From positions 234 through 64,233 of the forward strand of contig NZ_JALBGD010000014.1 in the NCBI RefSeq assembly GCF_023507705.1: 64,000 bases of DNA, given 5' to 3'. Positions 44,183-50,570 of the stretch are shown one piece after another. The notes under the pieces were generated by a model. That model searched no databases. It was not told the origin of the DNA and worked only from the letters and a program-made list of their open reading frames with translations. Origin of the DNA: Stappia sp. WLB 29 (GTDB lineage: Bacteria; Pseudomonadota; Alphaproteobacteria; Rhizobiales; Stappiaceae). The position numbers and the translations under genes were made by a program. Each line of letters opens with the position of its first letter. Positions within the stretch are counted from its first letter, which is position 1.

Positions 44183-45628
44183 TCAGCGCGACCAGAAGTC
44201 GGGATCGAGCAGTACCAGCACGGTGAACAGCTCGAGCCGGCCCATCAGCATGGCAAAGGACAGGATCCACTTCGCCCCATCGGGCAGCGGTGCGAAGTTG
44301 CCCGCCGGGCCGATGATCGGGCCGAGACCGGGGCCGACATTGGAGATCGCCGTTGCCGCCGCCGACAGGGCGGTGACGAGGTCGAGACCGAAGCCGGACA
44401 ACGCCAGCGTGATCGCACCCACTGAGCCCATGTAGACGACGAGAAAGGCCAGGACCGAGAAGGACAGCTCCGGCGTCAGGCGGGCATTGGCGTATTGCTC
44501 GGACATCACCCGGTTCGGCCGGACCATCCGCCGCACATGCGCCCGCACGGTGCCGAAGAACACCAGAAAGCGGAAGATCTTGATACCGCCGGACGTGGAG
44601 CCCGTGCAGCCGCCGACAAAGGTCAGCAGCAGGGCGAGGCCGATCACCGGCGGACCCCAGGTGGTGTAGTCGCCCATGGCGAAACCCGTCGTCGTGATGA
44701 TCGAGACGATGTTGAAGGTCGAGGCCAGCAGCGCTTCGGAGAAGTTCATCTCCAGCGCCGCCCCGAGATAGACCGTCACCGCCAGCGAGGTCAGAACCAC
44801 GAGGCCGAGCAGCGCCCGCACCTGCGGGTCGTTCCACAGCAGCAGCGGCCGGCCGCGCAAGGCCTGGATGATCAGCACGAAAGGCATGGCACCGATCAGC
44901 ATGAAGACCACGGCGACCCAACCGGCAGCAGGATTGGCGAAAAAACCGAAAGACGCATCGTGCGTGGAATAGCCGCCGGTCGCGATCGTCGCCATCGCAT
45001 GGTTGATCGCATCAAACACCGTCATGCCGGTCAGCAGGAAGGCGAGCACGCAGACGAAGGTCAGGAACAGGTAGGTGATGCCGAACAGACGGATCAGTTC
45101 GACCGAGCGCGCGACGATCTTCTCGCTGCGGTCCGAGCTCTCGCTCTGGAAGAGCTGCATGCCGCCGATCCGCAGGAACGGCAGCAGAACGATGGCCATG
45201 ACGACGATGCCGACGCCGCCCATCCATTGCATCAGGGAGCGCCACACCAGCAAACCGGGAGGCAGGCTGTCGAGGCCGGAAAGGACTGTCGATCCCGTCG
45301 TCGTGAAGCCGGATACCGCCTCGAACACCGCATCCGCATACCCGATGCCGAGCCACAGGAACGGCAGCGCCCCGAAGGCCGGCAGCGTCAGCCAGGACAG
45401 CGTCGTCAGGATGAAGGTCTGGCGAATGTCGAGCCCCTCGGTCAGCGCACCGCCGACGGCGACGGACAGCAGCAGGCCGATCAGGCCGGTGATCAGCGCC
45501 GACATGACGAAGGCCTGCCAGTCGGCATTGCGCGCGGCGACGTCGACCATTGCCGGGATGAGCATGGCTGTCGCCAGGCCCACGTAGAGAAAACCGAGGA
45601 CGTTGAGCACGGGGCGAAGCGAAATCAC
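44183..45628 (-). CDS. trkH: Potassium uptake protein TrkH
   Basis: Integral membrane K+ translocating subunit of 481 aa starting at a GTG whose N-terminus ISLRPVLNVLGFLYVG matches TrkH. The four pore loops typical of Trk (SGFTTTGSTV, with its selectivity-type GG/TG context, and later TTGFAMGDY, TGSTSGGIK, NVGPGLGP) are visible. It works with a cytoplasmic TrkA subunit, which is not in the window. Part of an ion-transport block. Confidence 0.92.
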   Translation of the reverse strand: MISLRPVLNVLGFLYVGLATAMLIPAMVDVAARNADWQAFVMSALITGLIGLLLSVAVGGALTEGLDIRQTFILTTLSWLTLPAFGALPFLWLGIGYADAVFEAVSGFTTTGSTVLSGLDSLPPGLLVWRSLMQWMGGVGIVVMAIVLLPFLRIGGMQLFQSESSDRSEKIVARSVELIRLFGITYLFLTFVCVLAFLLTGMTVFDAINHAMATIATGGYSTHDASFGFFANPAAGWVAVVFMLIGAMPFVLIIQALRGRPLLLWNDPQVRALLGLVVLTSLAVTVYLGAALEMNFSEALLASTFNIVSIITTTGFAMGDYTTWGPPVIGLALLLTFVGGCTGSTSGGIKIFRFLVFFGTVRAHVRRMVRPNRVMSEQYANARLTPELSFSVLAFLVVYMGSVGAITLALSGFGLDLVTALSAAATAISNVGPGLGPIIGPAGNFAPLPDGAKWILSFAMLMGRLELFTVLVLLDPDFWSR

Positions 45629-46096
45629 GGAATGGCGTCTTTCGTCGTCTGGCGTCGTCCGGGATCTGCGATCGTCGTCCCGTCTTGCGATGCGTGGCGG
45701 CAATCCTGGTACGGACGGTAGGGCTCGACCCCGCATGGCCTAGACCGAGGGACCGGTAACTCTGGAGACCGTACCTGTCGTTCTGTATCTGAAGCGAGTT
45801 TTCCGGCTTATCCGGGAGCGCGCAGGATAGTGCGCACGAATCCTGCTGATTTTGCGGGCATCTCGGACCTCATCCGCCTGCTGCCTTGCGGCACCGACTG
45901 CATGTGGCTGCCAACCTACCATTTTCCCCGGCCGAGCCAAGTACAAGGCTGAACGGACATGGTCAAGGCTTCGCCCGCAAGCCCTGCCTCCCGGTGCCGC
46001 CTCCCACCTCGCTGCGGCGTTGTCGTTTGCATTCCCTGCTGCCGGCGCCGGAACAATGTCTCCGATCAGGCCGTTTGCAAGGAATGGAGTGGTCGC
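45629..46096. other. Gene-free divergent spacer trkH/mgtC
   Basis: 468 bp separate the two divergent genes. Open frames occur but none has a family match or good start. No riboswitch fold (Mg2+ sensors would be the natural guess next to mgtC) and no palindrome is evident to me. Confidence 0.45.
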
Positions 46097-46624
46097 ATGC
46101 TTGAAACGGATATCGTCCTGAGGCTGTCGCTCGCAGTTGCCGGCGGCCTCGTGCTGGGCCTCGACCGCGAACTGCGCGGCATTTCCGCCGGCATTCGCAC
46201 GCATGGCATCGTGTCGCTAAGCTCGGCGGCGATCACGGTGTCCGCGCTTCTGCTCTACGACGCGATGAGATTCGATGCCGGCCCGCAAAGCATGGATCCC
46301 TTGCGGGTAATCCAGGGACTGGCGCAAGCCATCGGCTTCATCGCGGCCGGGACCATCTTCTTCTCCCGCGGCGACGTCCACAACCTGACATCGGCCGCCA
46401 ATCTGTGGCTTGCCGCCGCGCTGGGAATCGCCGCAGGCGCGGGCCAGTTCGTCCTGTTCTTCACCGCGCTCGTCCTGGGTGCGGTTCTGCTCACCGGCGT
46501 CCGTGTTCTGGAACGCTTCCTGCCCGGACGCGGCCAGCCCGAGCAAACGCAGTCTACCGGGCGACAAGTCTCGCGGGACGCACATTCCAACGCTCCGAAC
46601 CACGCGGTCACCAGCCAAGACTGA
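46097..46624 (+). CDS. MgtC/SapB-family membrane protein
   Basis: Protein of 175 aa with four hydrophobic segments and the family motif LVLGLDRELRGISAGIRTHGIVSLSSA. The C-terminal ACT-like domain of full MgtC is missing, and the last 30 residues are polar. MgtC proteins help growth under low magnesium or acid and inhibit F-ATPase in some pathogens; the role here is unknown. It converges on a CaCA antiporter. Confidence 0.87.
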   Translation: MLETDIVLRLSLAVAGGLVLGLDRELRGISAGIRTHGIVSLSSAAITVSALLLYDAMRFDAGPQSMDPLRVIQGLAQAIGFIAAGTIFFSRGDVHNLTSAANLWLAAALGIAAGAGQFVLFFTALVLGAVLLTGVRVLERFLPGRGQPEQTQSTGRQVSRDAHSNAPNHAVTSQD

Positions 46625-46631
46625 AGGGCTG

Positions 46632-46653
46632 CTGCAGCAGGTCCCTGCTGCAG
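46632..46653. terminator. Perfect 10-bp inverted repeat
   Basis: CTGCAGCAGG and CCTGCTGCAG with a 2-nt loop lie between the convergent mgtC-like and antiporter genes. There is no T-run, so it may be only a weak terminator or a protective hairpin. Confidence 0.4.
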
Positions 46654-46657
46654 GGTA

Positions 46658-47677
46658 CTAGCTCCCCTGCGTGACGAAGATTTGGAGCGCGACAGCGCCC
46701 GCATAGATGGCAAGCAGCGCTGCGCTTTCCGTTCCGATGCGGATAGGCCCGGAGCGCTCGCGCAAAATGAGCCCCGCCAGGAGGACCGCCGTCATCATGG
46801 CGGCGATGACCACCCAGAAGAAATCCGAAGGGCCGGCCGCGTGATAGAGCGAACCGTCCCGATACGAAATGTCCGCGGCCGTCAGGAACAGGGTGTCGAA
46901 CGTGTTCCCTCCGATGATCCCGCCGATGGCCAGCTGCAACGACCCGCGCCGGACGGCGACCAGCGTGGTCACGAGTTCCGGCATCGAGGTGATCGTCGCC
47001 GTCGCCAACGCTCCGACCAGCGAGGCCGAGAGCCCGAACCTGTCCACCAGCACTGAGGCGCTCGAGGCGATGGCCCAGCCGGCAATCCCCATGACCACCA
47101 TCAACCCGGCGAAGCTCGCGATGAGCGCGGCAGTGGAGCGTTCGCCTTCACCGCCGCCTTCCGCCTCCGGCCGATCTTCCCGGGTATCGGAGGTCGCAAC
47201 GGGGCGCCACATGGGCTCTGCGCGAATGGAGCGGCTGGCGACCAGCGACGCGATATAAATGACCGGTATCGCCAGGGAGACCGGATGGACCGACCATAAG
47301 GTGAACTCCGGCAGGGTCACCGCGAGGAACGGCAGCATCAGCAAGCCGAACAGCACCACCGCCTGAAACACGTTCACCAGTTCGGCGCCGGCGTGTTCGA
47401 GATTGGCCCGCCGGTATGTCAGGTCGGCAATGGCCAGGAACGCCGTCTGGGCGGCGATACCACCGATGCTGTTGGAGAACGCCAGCGAAGCCTGCCCCTC
47501 CAGTGCCGCCGTAATCGAGACGATGGTGCCGCTGAGCGAGGTGGACGCCCCCAGAAGCACCGCCCCGGCAATCGCTTCTCCCAGGCCCGTGCGATCGGCA
47601 AGCGTGTCGGCCAGCCTGGTGAGACGGGTGCCGCTGATGAACACCGCAAGGCCCGCCGCGATGAAGACAAGAAGCAC
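46658..47677 (-). CDS. CaCA-family cation antiporter, degenerate first alpha repeat
   Basis: Membrane protein of 339 aa with about ten hydrophobic segments in two halves. The second alpha repeat is canonical (ITSMPELVTTLVA, then GGNTFDTLF). The first reads GASTSLSGTIVSI, lacking the conserved Pro-Glu pair, so ion binding may differ from true Ca2+/H+ exchangers. The GTG start has no good ribosome site and the true start may lie a few codons upstream. Confidence 0.78.
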   Translation of the reverse strand: MLLVFIAAGLAVFISGTRLTRLADTLADRTGLGEAIAGAVLLGASTSLSGTIVSITAALEGQASLAFSNSIGGIAAQTAFLAIADLTYRRANLEHAGAELVNVFQAVVLFGLLMLPFLAVTLPEFTLWSVHPVSLAIPVIYIASLVASRSIRAEPMWRPVATSDTREDRPEAEGGGEGERSTAALIASFAGLMVVMGIAGWAIASSASVLVDRFGLSASLVGALATATITSMPELVTTLVAVRRGSLQLAIGGIIGGNTFDTLFLTAADISYRDGSLYHAAGPSDFFWVVIAAMMTAVLLAGLILRERSGPIRIGTESAALLAIYAGAVALQIFVTQGS

Positions 47678-47759
47678 AGTGGTCGTGGAGGCGCTGACTA
47701 GGATGGCAAAATCTCCTTTTTTCTGGTCGGTTACGACCGGGCTCGGCTCGAAGGGGCGT

Positions 47760-49064
47760 CTAGGCCAGAGCCTTGACGGCCTCGATCGCCGTGTCGACCT
47801 CCGACTCCATATTCCGGATAGATGGCGTCAGGCGGATATGCGCCTGGGCATACGGCGCGACCGATGCGACGATCCCGCGCTCCCTGAGTGCCGCCACCGC
47901 CGCGCCGGCCGAGCGACCGTCGATGTCGAACGAGACGATGCCCGCCGAGAGATCCGGATCCATCGGGGTGATCACCGCGACCCCGTCGATGGCGGCAAGC
48001 CCGCGCTTGAGACGGGTTGCAAGCCCGTGCGTTCGCTCTTGAACCGCCGCCTTGCCGATTTGAGCGTGAAGCTCGAAAGCCTCCTTCACCGCCCACAGAT
48101 GCTCGAAGGCCTTAAAGCCTCCAGGTGTCATGCGGCGCCCGTTGTTCCGGCCTCTCGGCGCGTTTCGCCTCCTGACCCAGGCATTGAAAGTCGGATCGTC
48201 GGTGAAACTGGGCACCGTCGGTGCCAATGCGTCCAGCGCCTTGCCGCTGAAAACCGCGATGCCGGTGCCGCGCGGACCGAAGAGCCACTTGTGGCATCCG
48301 GCCATCAGCATGTCGCACCCGAGGTCGGCGAAGGAGACGTCTTCGATGCCGAAGCCATGGACACCGTCGACGCCCAGTAGAATATGGTCCTGCGGGTCGC
48401 GGCCCGCATTGTGGTCGCGAAGTCCCCTGGCGATGGCACGAATGGGCATCTTGAGCCCGGTGCTGGAATGGACCCAGGTCAGCGCCACCAGACGCGTTTT
48501 GGGGCCGACTCCATTCAGGACGGCGGCGGCGATGGCCTCGGCCGTAGCATCGGAGGCCCGCTCGTAGAGCGGTATCGAGCGCAGGCGAGCACCGGATTCC
48601 AGCGCCTTGAGGCGCAGCGCCTCATGGGTGACGAAATAGTCCTCGTCGGTGGTGAGCATCTCCTGATCCGCGCGAATCTGGAGCCCGCCATAGGCCAGTC
48701 CCACAGCCATCGTCGTGCTGTCGGCGAACGCCACATGCGAGGAATGGATGTCGAGATAGGTGCCCGCAGCACGCCGGCTCGCCTCGGTGAGTTCCTCCAT
48801 ATGGGCTTCGAGATAGGCGACCGTGTCGCGGTCCAGTCCTGCACGATGGCGCGCGATCGCTTGCGCCACGGGACGGGGATGCGACGACAGCAGCATCGCG
48901 CTCATGTGGACCTTGTCGCGGGTCAGCTCGAAGAGATCGCGGACCGCCTCCCAGTCTTCCAGCGACGACGGGCTAAGCGTTTCCGCCTCCGAAATCCTCG
49001 AGATGCCAAGCGCAGCCGGAAACGCCGCCATGAGGTGAAGCAGATGACGGCGCGAAAACGCCAT
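47760..49064 (-). CDS. Tat-exported class V aminotransferase-fold PLP enzyme
   Basis: Protein of 434 aa. The N-terminus MAFSRRHLLHLMAAFPAALG has the twin-arginine pattern S-R-R-x-L-L and a hydrophobic stretch, indicating folded export. The rest is an isopenicillin-N epimerase-like class V fold: PLP lysine K259 (AGCHKWLFGPRG) and D233 (GVDGVH). PLP enzymes are usually cytoplasmic, so periplasmic location is unusual, and the substrate is unknown. The ribosome site is ACGGAGG. The antiporter follows 82 bp later. Confidence 0.83.
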   Translation of the reverse strand: MAFSRRHLLHLMAAFPAALGISRISEAETLSPSSLEDWEAVRDLFELTRDKVHMSAMLLSSHPRPVAQAIARHRAGLDRDTVAYLEAHMEELTEASRRAAGTYLDIHSSHVAFADSTTMAVGLAYGGLQIRADQEMLTTDEDYFVTHEALRLKALESGARLRSIPLYERASDATAEAIAAAVLNGVGPKTRLVALTWVHSSTGLKMPIRAIARGLRDHNAGRDPQDHILLGVDGVHGFGIEDVSFADLGCDMLMAGCHKWLFGPRGTGIAVFSGKALDALAPTVPSFTDDPTFNAWVRRRNAPRGRNNGRRMTPGGFKAFEHLWAVKEAFELHAQIGKAAVQERTHGLATRLKRGLAAIDGVAVITPMDPDLSAGIVSFDIDGRSAGAAVAALRERGIVASVAPYAQAHIRLTPSIRNMESEVDTAIEAVKALA

Positions 49065-49194
49065 GGGGAGGCCTCCGTGTCTGTCTTGAGATTCAACGCA
49101 AGACGTAGCACATGGTTGCCTGAGCGAGGGACCATGTCGGCAGCTCAGTTCCAGGTTGAGCATTGGTCGGCGCTTTGCTAGCAGAGAGGCCAGT

Positions 49195-49486
49195 GCGGAC
49201 GTGGTGGAATTGGTAGACACAAGGGACTTGGGGCAAACTTGAGTGCGCCGGCGGAAACGCGGGACGTAGAACTGCTCAAATTCGGGGAACCCTGTCACAT
49301 GGCGATCCCGAGCCAAGCCCGAGAAATCGGGAAGGTGTAGAGACTAGACGGGCAGCACCTAAGGCTTTCGCTACGGTGAAGGTATAGTCCAGACCACAAA
49401 CGCCGAAAGGCGGCGGCGAAAGCCGTAGCTGGTACGAAAATCCCTCAGCCTCGGCTATGCGGGTTCGAGTCCCGCCGTCCGTACCA
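49195..49486 (+). tRNA. tRNA-Leu(TAA) interrupted by a group I intron
   Basis: Class II tRNA in two exons (49195-49229 and 49437-49486). Acceptor strands GCGGACG and CGTCCGT pair with one G-U, the D arm is GTGGAATTGGTAGACA, the T arm is GGGTTCGAGTCCC, and CCA is encoded. Removing the intron rebuilds the anticodon arm AGGGA-CTTAAAA-TCCCT, giving anticodon TAA. The break is between the first and second anticodon bases, exactly where the cyanobacterial and plastid tRNA-Leu(UAA) intron sits. Confidence 0.96.
49230..49436 (+). ncRNA. Group I self-splicing intron (IC3-like) in tRNA-Leu
   Basis: 207 nt ending in the terminal G (49436) with no reading frame. P1 forms between ACTT-GGG (49226-49232) and CTTGAGT (49238-49244), with the U-G wobble at the 5' splice site. 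P3: CTGC/GCAG (49272, 49352). P6: CCCGA-GAAA-TCGGG (49318-49331). P7: GACTA/TAGTC (49342-49346, 49385-49389), the guanosine site. P8: CACC/GGTG (49356, 49375). P9: CGCC-GAAA-GGCG and CGGC-GAAA-GCCG (49401, 49414). Core stretches GAGCCAAGCC and AGAGACTAGACGGG match the cyanobacterial intron type. Confidence 0.95.
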
Positions 49487-49736
49487 GACAGACCGGCGCC
49501 CCTACGGCCGGTCGCGCCTGCTGTGCCGGCCCTGCGTCCAGCGCCACTCGCCCTTGCGGCGAAAGCGGATTGCGCCCCACGCCCTCGCGTTTTAAGGCTA
49601 TTGGAAATCCCGGCGGAGCCAGTCCCGCCCGACCCTTGCGCCCCGCATGCCTCCCGCATCGCGCGGCGACCGCAGACACTGCGGCGCGGGGGGGCGGCAG
49701 TCCCGCGACACGAACAGCCCGGACGAGCATCTCGCA

Positions 49737-50570
49737 ATGGTCACCTATATCGACGCCACCACGGCCCCTCTCAAGAATACCGGCCAGATCCGCCTCTACG
49801 GGCCGGAGGACTTCGCCGGCATGCACAAGGCGGGACAGCTGACGGCGCGCTGCCTCGATGCGCTGGTGGAAAAGATCGTGCCCGGCGTCACCACTCAGGA
49901 GATCGACGATTTCGTCTACCGCTTCGGTGTGGAAAACGGCGCCCTGCCGGCGACGCTGAACTACCGCGGCTACACCAAGTCGACCTGCACCTCGATCAAC
50001 CATGTCGTCTGCCACGGCATCCCGAACGACAAGCCGCTCAAGGAAGGCGACATCGTCAATATCGACGTGACCTACATCCTCGAAGGCTGGCACGGCGATT
50101 CCAGCCGCATGTATGCGGTCGGCAAGCTGAAGCGCGCCGCCGAGCGGCTGGTGGAGGTTACTTACGAATCGCTGCTGCGCGGCATCGAGATGGCCCGGCC
50201 CGGCAAGACCACCGGCGACATCGGCCACGCGATCCAGAGCTTCGTGGAAGCAGAGCGCTGCTCGGTGGTGCGCGACTTCTGCGGCCACGGCGTCGGCCGT
50301 CTGTTCCACGACATGCCGAACATCCTGCATTACGGCCGTCCGGGCGAAGGCATCGAGCTGAAGCCGGGGATGATCTTTACCATCGAACCGATGGTCAATC
50401 TCGGCCGGCCGCATGTGAAGGTGCTCGGCGACGGCTGGACCGCCGTCACTCGCGACCGCTCGCTGTCGGCCCAGTTCGAGCACTCGGTCGGCATCACCGC
50501 GACGGGGTGCGAGATCTTCACCCTGTCGCCCGCCGGCCTCGACAATCCGCTGACCTTCGGTCGCGCCTGA
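49737..50570 (+). CDS. map: Methionine aminopeptidase, type I
   Basis: Removes the initiator methionine from nascent proteins. The 277-aa product has the metal ligands in [35 protein letters not shown] and the final [11 protein letters not shown]. The N-terminal extension (about 30 residues) before the pita-bread core is usual in alphaproteobacteria. The start ATG is followed by VTYIDATT. radC follows 25 bp later. Confidence 0.95.

Follow-up and report, generated by a model that had tools for sequence, protein, structure and literature searches.

The window examined here is a 64,000-nucleotide stretch of DNA from the marine bacterium Stappia sp. WLB 29, and it includes a tRNA-Leu(UAA) gene interrupted by a group I intron. 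The proteobacterial group IC3 introns in the tRNA-Ile of Azoarcus and the tRNA-Arg of Agrobacterium are alike in size, lack an open reading frame (ORF), and occupy an anticodon-loop site, whereas the window intron is located in tRNA-Leu(UAA), after U34, and belongs to a family resident in mobile elements. Its core is presumably similar in sequence to group IC3, with Azoarcus tRNA-Ile as the sequence compared, and we take it to match the core of the Azoarcus tRNA-Ile ribozyme. The tRNA-Leu(UAA) intron of cyanobacteria and plastids shares both the tRNA and the insertion position with the window intron, although the nearest relatives found for the latter are proteobacterial. A tRNA-Leu(UAA) intron of Gammaproteobacteria is reportedly the subject of a paper by Vepritskiy from 2002, and no prior report of tRNA-Leu introns in Alphaproteobacteria was found in the open-licence literature.

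Integration at the expense of a host tRNA has been described in actinophages as tRNA-dependent lysogeny, where recombination occurs at a core of approximately 10 bp, the host tRNA is destroyed, and the phage carries a tRNA of the same isotype; no intron-bearing tRNA was reported (Guerrero-Bustamante and Hatfull, 2024; PMC10865867). The elements described below share the tyrosine integrase, the short core in the anticodon loop, the unrebuilt host tRNA, and the cargo tRNA of the same isotype, but they are mobilizable elements of Alphaproteobacteria, their target is tRNA-Leu(UAA), and a group I intron is found at the att core. They also differ from the classical tRNA genomic island, where the element regenerates its target tRNA; the Leu(UAA) elements read in this study do not. 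In archaea, tRNA introns at attachment sites have been proposed to block integration, an idea from Randau and Soll that was reviewed by Sugahara et al. (2012; PMC3293823), who suggested a benefit to the integrated element. Those introns are spliced by proteins and are located in host tRNAs, whereas the intron considered here is predicted to be self-splicing and lies in the rescue tRNA of the element. The open-licence literature yielded no description of a rescue tRNA with a group I intron, and tRNA-dependent integration with introns has apparently not been reported previously. With the present elements, the known range of such integration would grow beyond actinophages to include mobilizable elements across Alphaproteobacteria.

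Identity and structure of the intron-bearing tRNA gene

A tRNA-Leu(UAA) gene containing a 207-nt group I intron was identified at positions 49195-49486 of the window (+ strand). Exon 1 (49195-49229) ends in GGACTT, which includes U33 and U34, and is followed by the ORF-less intron (49230-49436), inserted between U34 and A35, and by exon 2 (49437-49486), in which the CCA end is encoded. When introns were allowed, ARAGORN reported the gene as Leu(taa)i(36,207) at 49195-49486, and the spliced RNA of 85 nt was a well-formed tRNA-Leu(UAA); when run without introns, the program missed the gene at this position. The Rfam model Intron_gpI (RF00028) matched with 45.5 bits (E-value 1.7e-10 in a stretch of 500 nt), which falls under the gathering score of 50 bits. 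The silence of default annotation on this gene is explained by this sub-gathering score together with the intron.

The fold was assessed in an alignment of 22 sequences, comprising the window intron and 21 divergent relatives. Helices P1, P3, P4, P6, P7, P8, and P9 were supported, including the P3/P7 pseudoknot. Specifically, the internal guide GAGU (49241-49244) pairs with the exon sequence ACUU (49226-49229) to form P1, where the U.G wobble at the 5' splice site was invariant in all 22 sequences. The 5' strand of P3 (CTGCTC, 49272-49277) pairs with GGGCAG (49350-49355), and that of P7 (GACTA, 49342-49346) pairs with TAGTC (49385-49389), with two covarying pairs; all of these elements are on the + strand, and the intron terminates in G. 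Across the P1-P9 fold, 96.5% of cells were paired versus 84.7% in shuffled alignments, two-sided changes occurred at 33 pairs, and none of 500 shuffles reached the observed pairing. In P3, P4, P6, P7, and P8, pairing was 99-100%; changes on both sides of a pair were seen in P3, P4, P7, and P8, and the signal was abolished when helix partners were slid along the same alignment. The covariation indicates that the fold of this intron family is under selection, which suggests that the ribozyme of the window intron is very probably active; it would thus be expected to splice in vivo.

Among the Rfam tRNA matches in this genome, which is 99.9% complete, 43 tRNAs were identified. These included tRNA-Leu of the UAG, CAG, and GAG anticodons and none of the UAA anticodon. 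A DNA search of the genome for further copies yielded the gene at 49195-49486 and one 3' fragment, and nothing else. It is nearly certain that the Leu(UAA) gene of Stappia sp. WLB 29 both contains the intron and is the sole copy, so the decoding of UUA in this strain seems to require splicing. The initial annotation of this locus had described a 207-nt, ORF-less group I intron between the first two anticodon bases of tRNA-Leu(UAA), at the position of the cyanobacterial intron, with a wobble-containing P1 and helices P3, P6, P7, P8, and P9, on whose splicing an essential tRNA depends. Each of these points was borne out by the spliced tRNA model, the alignment, and the sole-copy status of the gene. 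Of the checks that it had proposed, the covariance-model search scored the region, albeit under the gathering score, and the second intact tRNA-Leu(UAA) that would have spoken against it was found neither among the 43 tRNAs nor by the DNA search. Matches to tRNA-Leu(CAA), Pro(CGG), Ala(UGC), and Ile(GAU) were also missing among the Rfam hits, and these may represent assembly gaps or undetected split genes.

Complete elements in related genomes

Elements with a tyrosine integrase that split the resident tRNA-Leu(UAA) and carry a complete intron-bearing copy were found in Breoghania corrubedonensis, Rhizobium pisi DSM 30132, Rhizobiales AFS049917, and a Caulobacter MAG. In B. corrubedonensis, the 3' half (L080 5053-5106) and the 5' half (L081 16758-16796) of the resident gene occur at the same locus as in Stappia, separated by approximately 31.5 kb. 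The element between them encodes a serine recombinase, a MobA/L relaxase, a type IV secretion system (T4SS) coupling protein, and a Gabija pair in addition to the intron-bearing tRNA-Leu(UAA). The tyrosine integrases adjoining each 5' half are members of one family, with identities of 54-85%. In the four hosts named above and in genomes G084, G193, G544, and G825, the integrase lies beside a tRNA that was disrupted and not rebuilt, and the cargo includes an intron-bearing tRNA of the same isotype. A DNA search for further Leu(UAA) copies was negative in R. pisi, AFS049917, and Breoghania, and in those Leu(UAA) elements that were read, the 5' half is not followed by a matching 3' end that would regenerate the target. 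Breoghania and G084 seem to retain traces of a former 3' half behind the 5' half, which would fit an ancestor that once rebuilt the tRNA and stopped doing so after gaining the rescue copy. Defence genes were also observed as cargo of such elements, namely the Gabija pair GajA/GajB (L081 12443-15210) and a Thoeris ThsB-like protein (L243 12143-13105).

A genome survey led by the integrase provided a sample independent of the intron. An intron-bearing tRNA-Leu(UAA) was located within approximately 100 bp of the integrase gene in all five elements that split Leu(UAA) and were scorable because the other side of the integrase gene was visible (G084, G193, G454, G544, and G825, of which G454 has the least clear partial gene). 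The sister integrases of this family are found beside intact tRNAs, and none of approximately 31 fetched loci with integrase homologs beside intact Met, Phe, Arg, Gln, Trp, or Lys tRNAs contained an intron-bearing tRNA. The contrast corresponds to a Fisher p of 2.7e-6 when loci are treated as independent; since the surveyed loci are related, its true weight is lower. In G1076, an integrase lies beside a partial Leu(UAA) with no visible intron-bearing tRNA, but the locus is 2.5 kb from the contig end and is unscorable. Additionally, a resident gene split by a shorter insert was observed in G022 of the genus Breoghania (L092 9951-11191), where the 1.15 kb insert contains a small ORF and a foreign tRNA-Leu(UAA) that is intronless and differs in the anticodon stem (CCAGACTTAAAATCTGG). 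An intron in the rescue tRNA is not obligatory, since the G022 copy lacks one.

Interruption of the attachment core

The two halves of the resident gene overlap in a core of about GACTTAAAATCC, which corresponds to the anticodon stem-loop. In the rescue gene, the sequence is GACTT-intron-AAAATCC, and the att core (GACTT^AAAATCC) is thus interrupted by the intron. Because the intron lies inside the core, the DNA of the rescue gene has no contiguous core while the spliced RNA is normal. We propose that the tyrosine integrase of an integrative, mobilizable element would recombine with the resident tRNA-Leu(UAA) at its anticodon loop, with a core of about GACTTAAAATCC, leaving the resident gene as two useless halves. 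The element would supply a complete replacement with its own upstream region, and with a group I intron at the center of the core, a normal rescue tRNA would form only after self-splicing. An essential tRNA gene could thereby be replaced by a foreign copy that needs splicing. If the intron indeed acts as camouflage, the integrase could not attack the rescue gene, and the removal of the intron by itself at the RNA level would still give a normal tRNA. Masking of the core is plausible, with the chances about evenly divided, and concealment of the rescue gene from the integrase may be the reason why the intron has been retained.

The strongest competing explanation agrees that the element brought the rescue tRNA but regards the intron as a passenger of the donor gene with no masking role. 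Intronless rescue tRNAs are functional in mycobacteriophages (PMC10865867), the G022 rescue tRNA is intronless as well, and members of the same intron family are found in tRNA-Leu genes on plasmids, where no link to integration is known. A mere passenger is harder to reconcile with the presence of the intron in all five scorable elements of the integrase survey, and with its position, which always interrupts the att core; the sole exception, in G022, has a different anticodon stem, a second means of departing from the core. It is also at odds with Gordonia phage Daredevil, which repeats the design in another phylum and another tRNA. We give the passenger explanation somewhat less than an even chance.

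Daredevil (tRNA-Lys-TTT) was listed as lacking a rescue tRNA and as forming clear plaques (PMC10865867). In its genome (NC_048021, L301 3840-4151), a tRNA-Lys(UUU) interrupted after U34 by 238 nt with a related intron core was found adjoining int and the CGGACTTTTAATCCG attP. No Rfam match was obtained in this phage at an E-value of 0.1, whereas ARAGORN identified the split tRNA and BLAST the related core, indicating that Rfam under-detects this intron family. The published study of tRNA-dependent lysogeny missed this intron-bearing tRNA-Lys, which supports a recurring design as a separate case. Given the clear plaques, it may fail as a functional rescue in that host. With masking as the reading pursued here, the intron would be a DNA-level camouflage of rescue tRNAs that arose at least twice, in alphaproteobacterial tRNA-Leu and in the tRNA-Lys of Daredevil, and that could help explain the preference of group I introns for tRNA anticodon loops; we judge this broader proposal equally likely to be right or wrong. 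It would give bacterial tRNA introns a possible selected function as well as a vehicle, and it makes testable the old puzzle of why ORF-less group I introns occupy anticodon loops and spread patchily.

The split resident gene and the insert in Stappia

The intron was found in four of the 14 sampled genomes of the genus, and the remaining 10 contain an intact, intronless Leu(UAA). In the intronless Stappia G008, this gene is on the minus strand and is flanked by trkH and map. In the window, the resident tRNA-Leu(UAA) persists at exactly that place as a decayed 3' half (45707-45752, - strand), which starts at the anticodon loop and is 83% identical to exon 2; no 5' half survives in the window. 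The remnant is overlapped by the longest ORF of the conserved left neighbor trkH (44183-45736, - strand), and the conserved right neighbor is map, an M24 peptidase gene (49737-50570, + strand). Between the remnant and map lies an insert of approximately 3.8 kb (45753-49537) that is absent from the intronless G008 allele (L084) and ends just beyond the intron-bearing tRNA at its right end. It contains an MgtC-family gene (45959-46624, + strand), a sodium/calcium exchanger gene (46658-47677, - strand), and a class V aminotransferase gene (47760-49067, - strand), the last of which is absent in G002. The 49-bp stretch upstream of the intron-bearing tRNA (49146-49194, + strand), a putative promoter region, is unlike the sequence upstream of the resident tRNA-Leu(UAA); it is common to Breoghania and Stappia carriers from 49146 and to Rhizobium carriers from 49173.

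No integrase was found by tblastn in the window or in its Stappia relatives. The case for the Leu(UAA)-splitting elements as vehicle is strong for the family, and the mechanism in the window is read from relatives because the integrase and the 5' half are gone there. In the Stappia lineage, the element would have decayed, with loss of the integrase and the 5' half and retention of the 3' half and the intron-bearing tRNA, after which the cell would depend on splicing to decode UUA. The intron-bearing tRNA is inverted relative to the remnant in the window and not inverted in Stappia sp. MMSF_3263, so a later rearrangement is needed. Horizontal transfer, considered likely in the initial annotation, is supported by the foreign upstream region and by the split resident tRNA at the ancestral site. 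A point absent from that annotation is that the gene is an immigrant, which mobile DNA very probably introduced while disrupting the resident tRNA-Leu(UAA); that it is specifically a rescue tRNA transplanted from a Leu(UAA)-splitting integrase element is probable, and the Stappia copy would have arrived by such an element.

Homing or reverse splicing of the intron alone into the resident Stappia tRNA-Leu(UAA), with the 3' fragment as an unrelated old pseudogene, would account for an insertion site that is identical in many taxa and for the patchy distribution, and independent movement is known for group I introns. However, the intron-bearing tRNA is on the opposite strand, at the far end of the insert, and differs in its upstream region. 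The position of the fragment coincides exactly with that of the ancestral tRNA, its start is at the anticodon loop, and the 207-nt intron has no homing endonuclease ORF; together, these observations make homing very improbable. It is also very improbable that an ancestral Leu(UAA) intron was inherited vertically and lost repeatedly in Stappia: the family is widespread in Alphaproteobacteria and no element was seen in some Rhizobium carriers, but 10 of the 14 genus genomes have an intact intronless gene that, where read, is at another place with another upstream region, and the Stappia carriers are polyphyletic on a trkH+map+radC tree, where a single clade was rejected (AU p 4.5e-9).

Distribution and descent of the intron family

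The relatives of the window intron form a widespread family of proteobacterial tRNA introns, from which 89 Leu(UAA) examples with strong covariation were collected. Of 397 genomes sampled from the order, 51 contained members, and those whose tRNA was typed lay mostly in Leu(UAA); the view in the initial annotation that tRNA-Leu(UAA) introns are rare outside cyanobacteria was not supported in Alphaproteobacteria. Other hosts in the order are tRNA-Arg(CCU) and tRNA-Thr(GGU), in which related introns were observed after position 36 (L112, L117, L124, and L126 for Arg; L107, L114, L122, L123, and L125 for Thr). The intron-bearing genes of Stappia indica SBBC 49 and Stappia sp. MMSF_3263 are 96-97% or more identical to that of the window. 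No split resident gene was found in many Rhizobium carriers at an E-value of 0.05.

In the intron phylogeny, the window intron grouped with those of Stappia, Breoghania, Oricola, and Tepidamorphus, and this group was joined with Rhizobium at weak support, as is the case for most deep branches. The closest relatives in this tree, whose sampling comprises no cyanobacterial intron, are proteobacterial. Support for the cyanobacterial descent implied by the earlier label of a cyanobacterial-type intron was not found, and, as far as tested, the relatives of the window intron are proteobacterial.

Wider occurrence

Genes of this kind are overlooked by standard tools, as illustrated by a relative on more than 1,200 plasmids and by another in a published phage. 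Plasmid pCTX-M3 (NC_004464.2, L208 6001-6298) contains an unannotated tRNA-Leu(UAA) with a 213-nt intron whose spliced tRNA is well formed, and on the plasmids read the gene adjoins a tmrB-like gene and aac(3)-IId. Similar sequences were found in 1276 PLSDB plasmids, most of which are enterobacterial; among 5426 complete E. coli genomes, 635 contained one.

A match in Pelagibacter phage HTVC120P (L302 3463-3655; L303) was rejected as a tRNA, since the intron-like core lies between two capsid coding sequences and is probably an intron in a capsid gene. Intron-bearing tRNA-Leu(UAA) genes were also observed in large IMG/VR contigs (L186, L190, L191, L196, L197, L200, L203, and L207), several of which exceed 100 kb and which apparently hold other tRNAs with introns of this family. 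Similarly, large conjugative plasmids of Bradyrhizobium (CP094621, NZ_CP094524, and others) contain a stretch resembling the intron-bearing tRNA-Leu(UAA), with a similarity of 74-84%.
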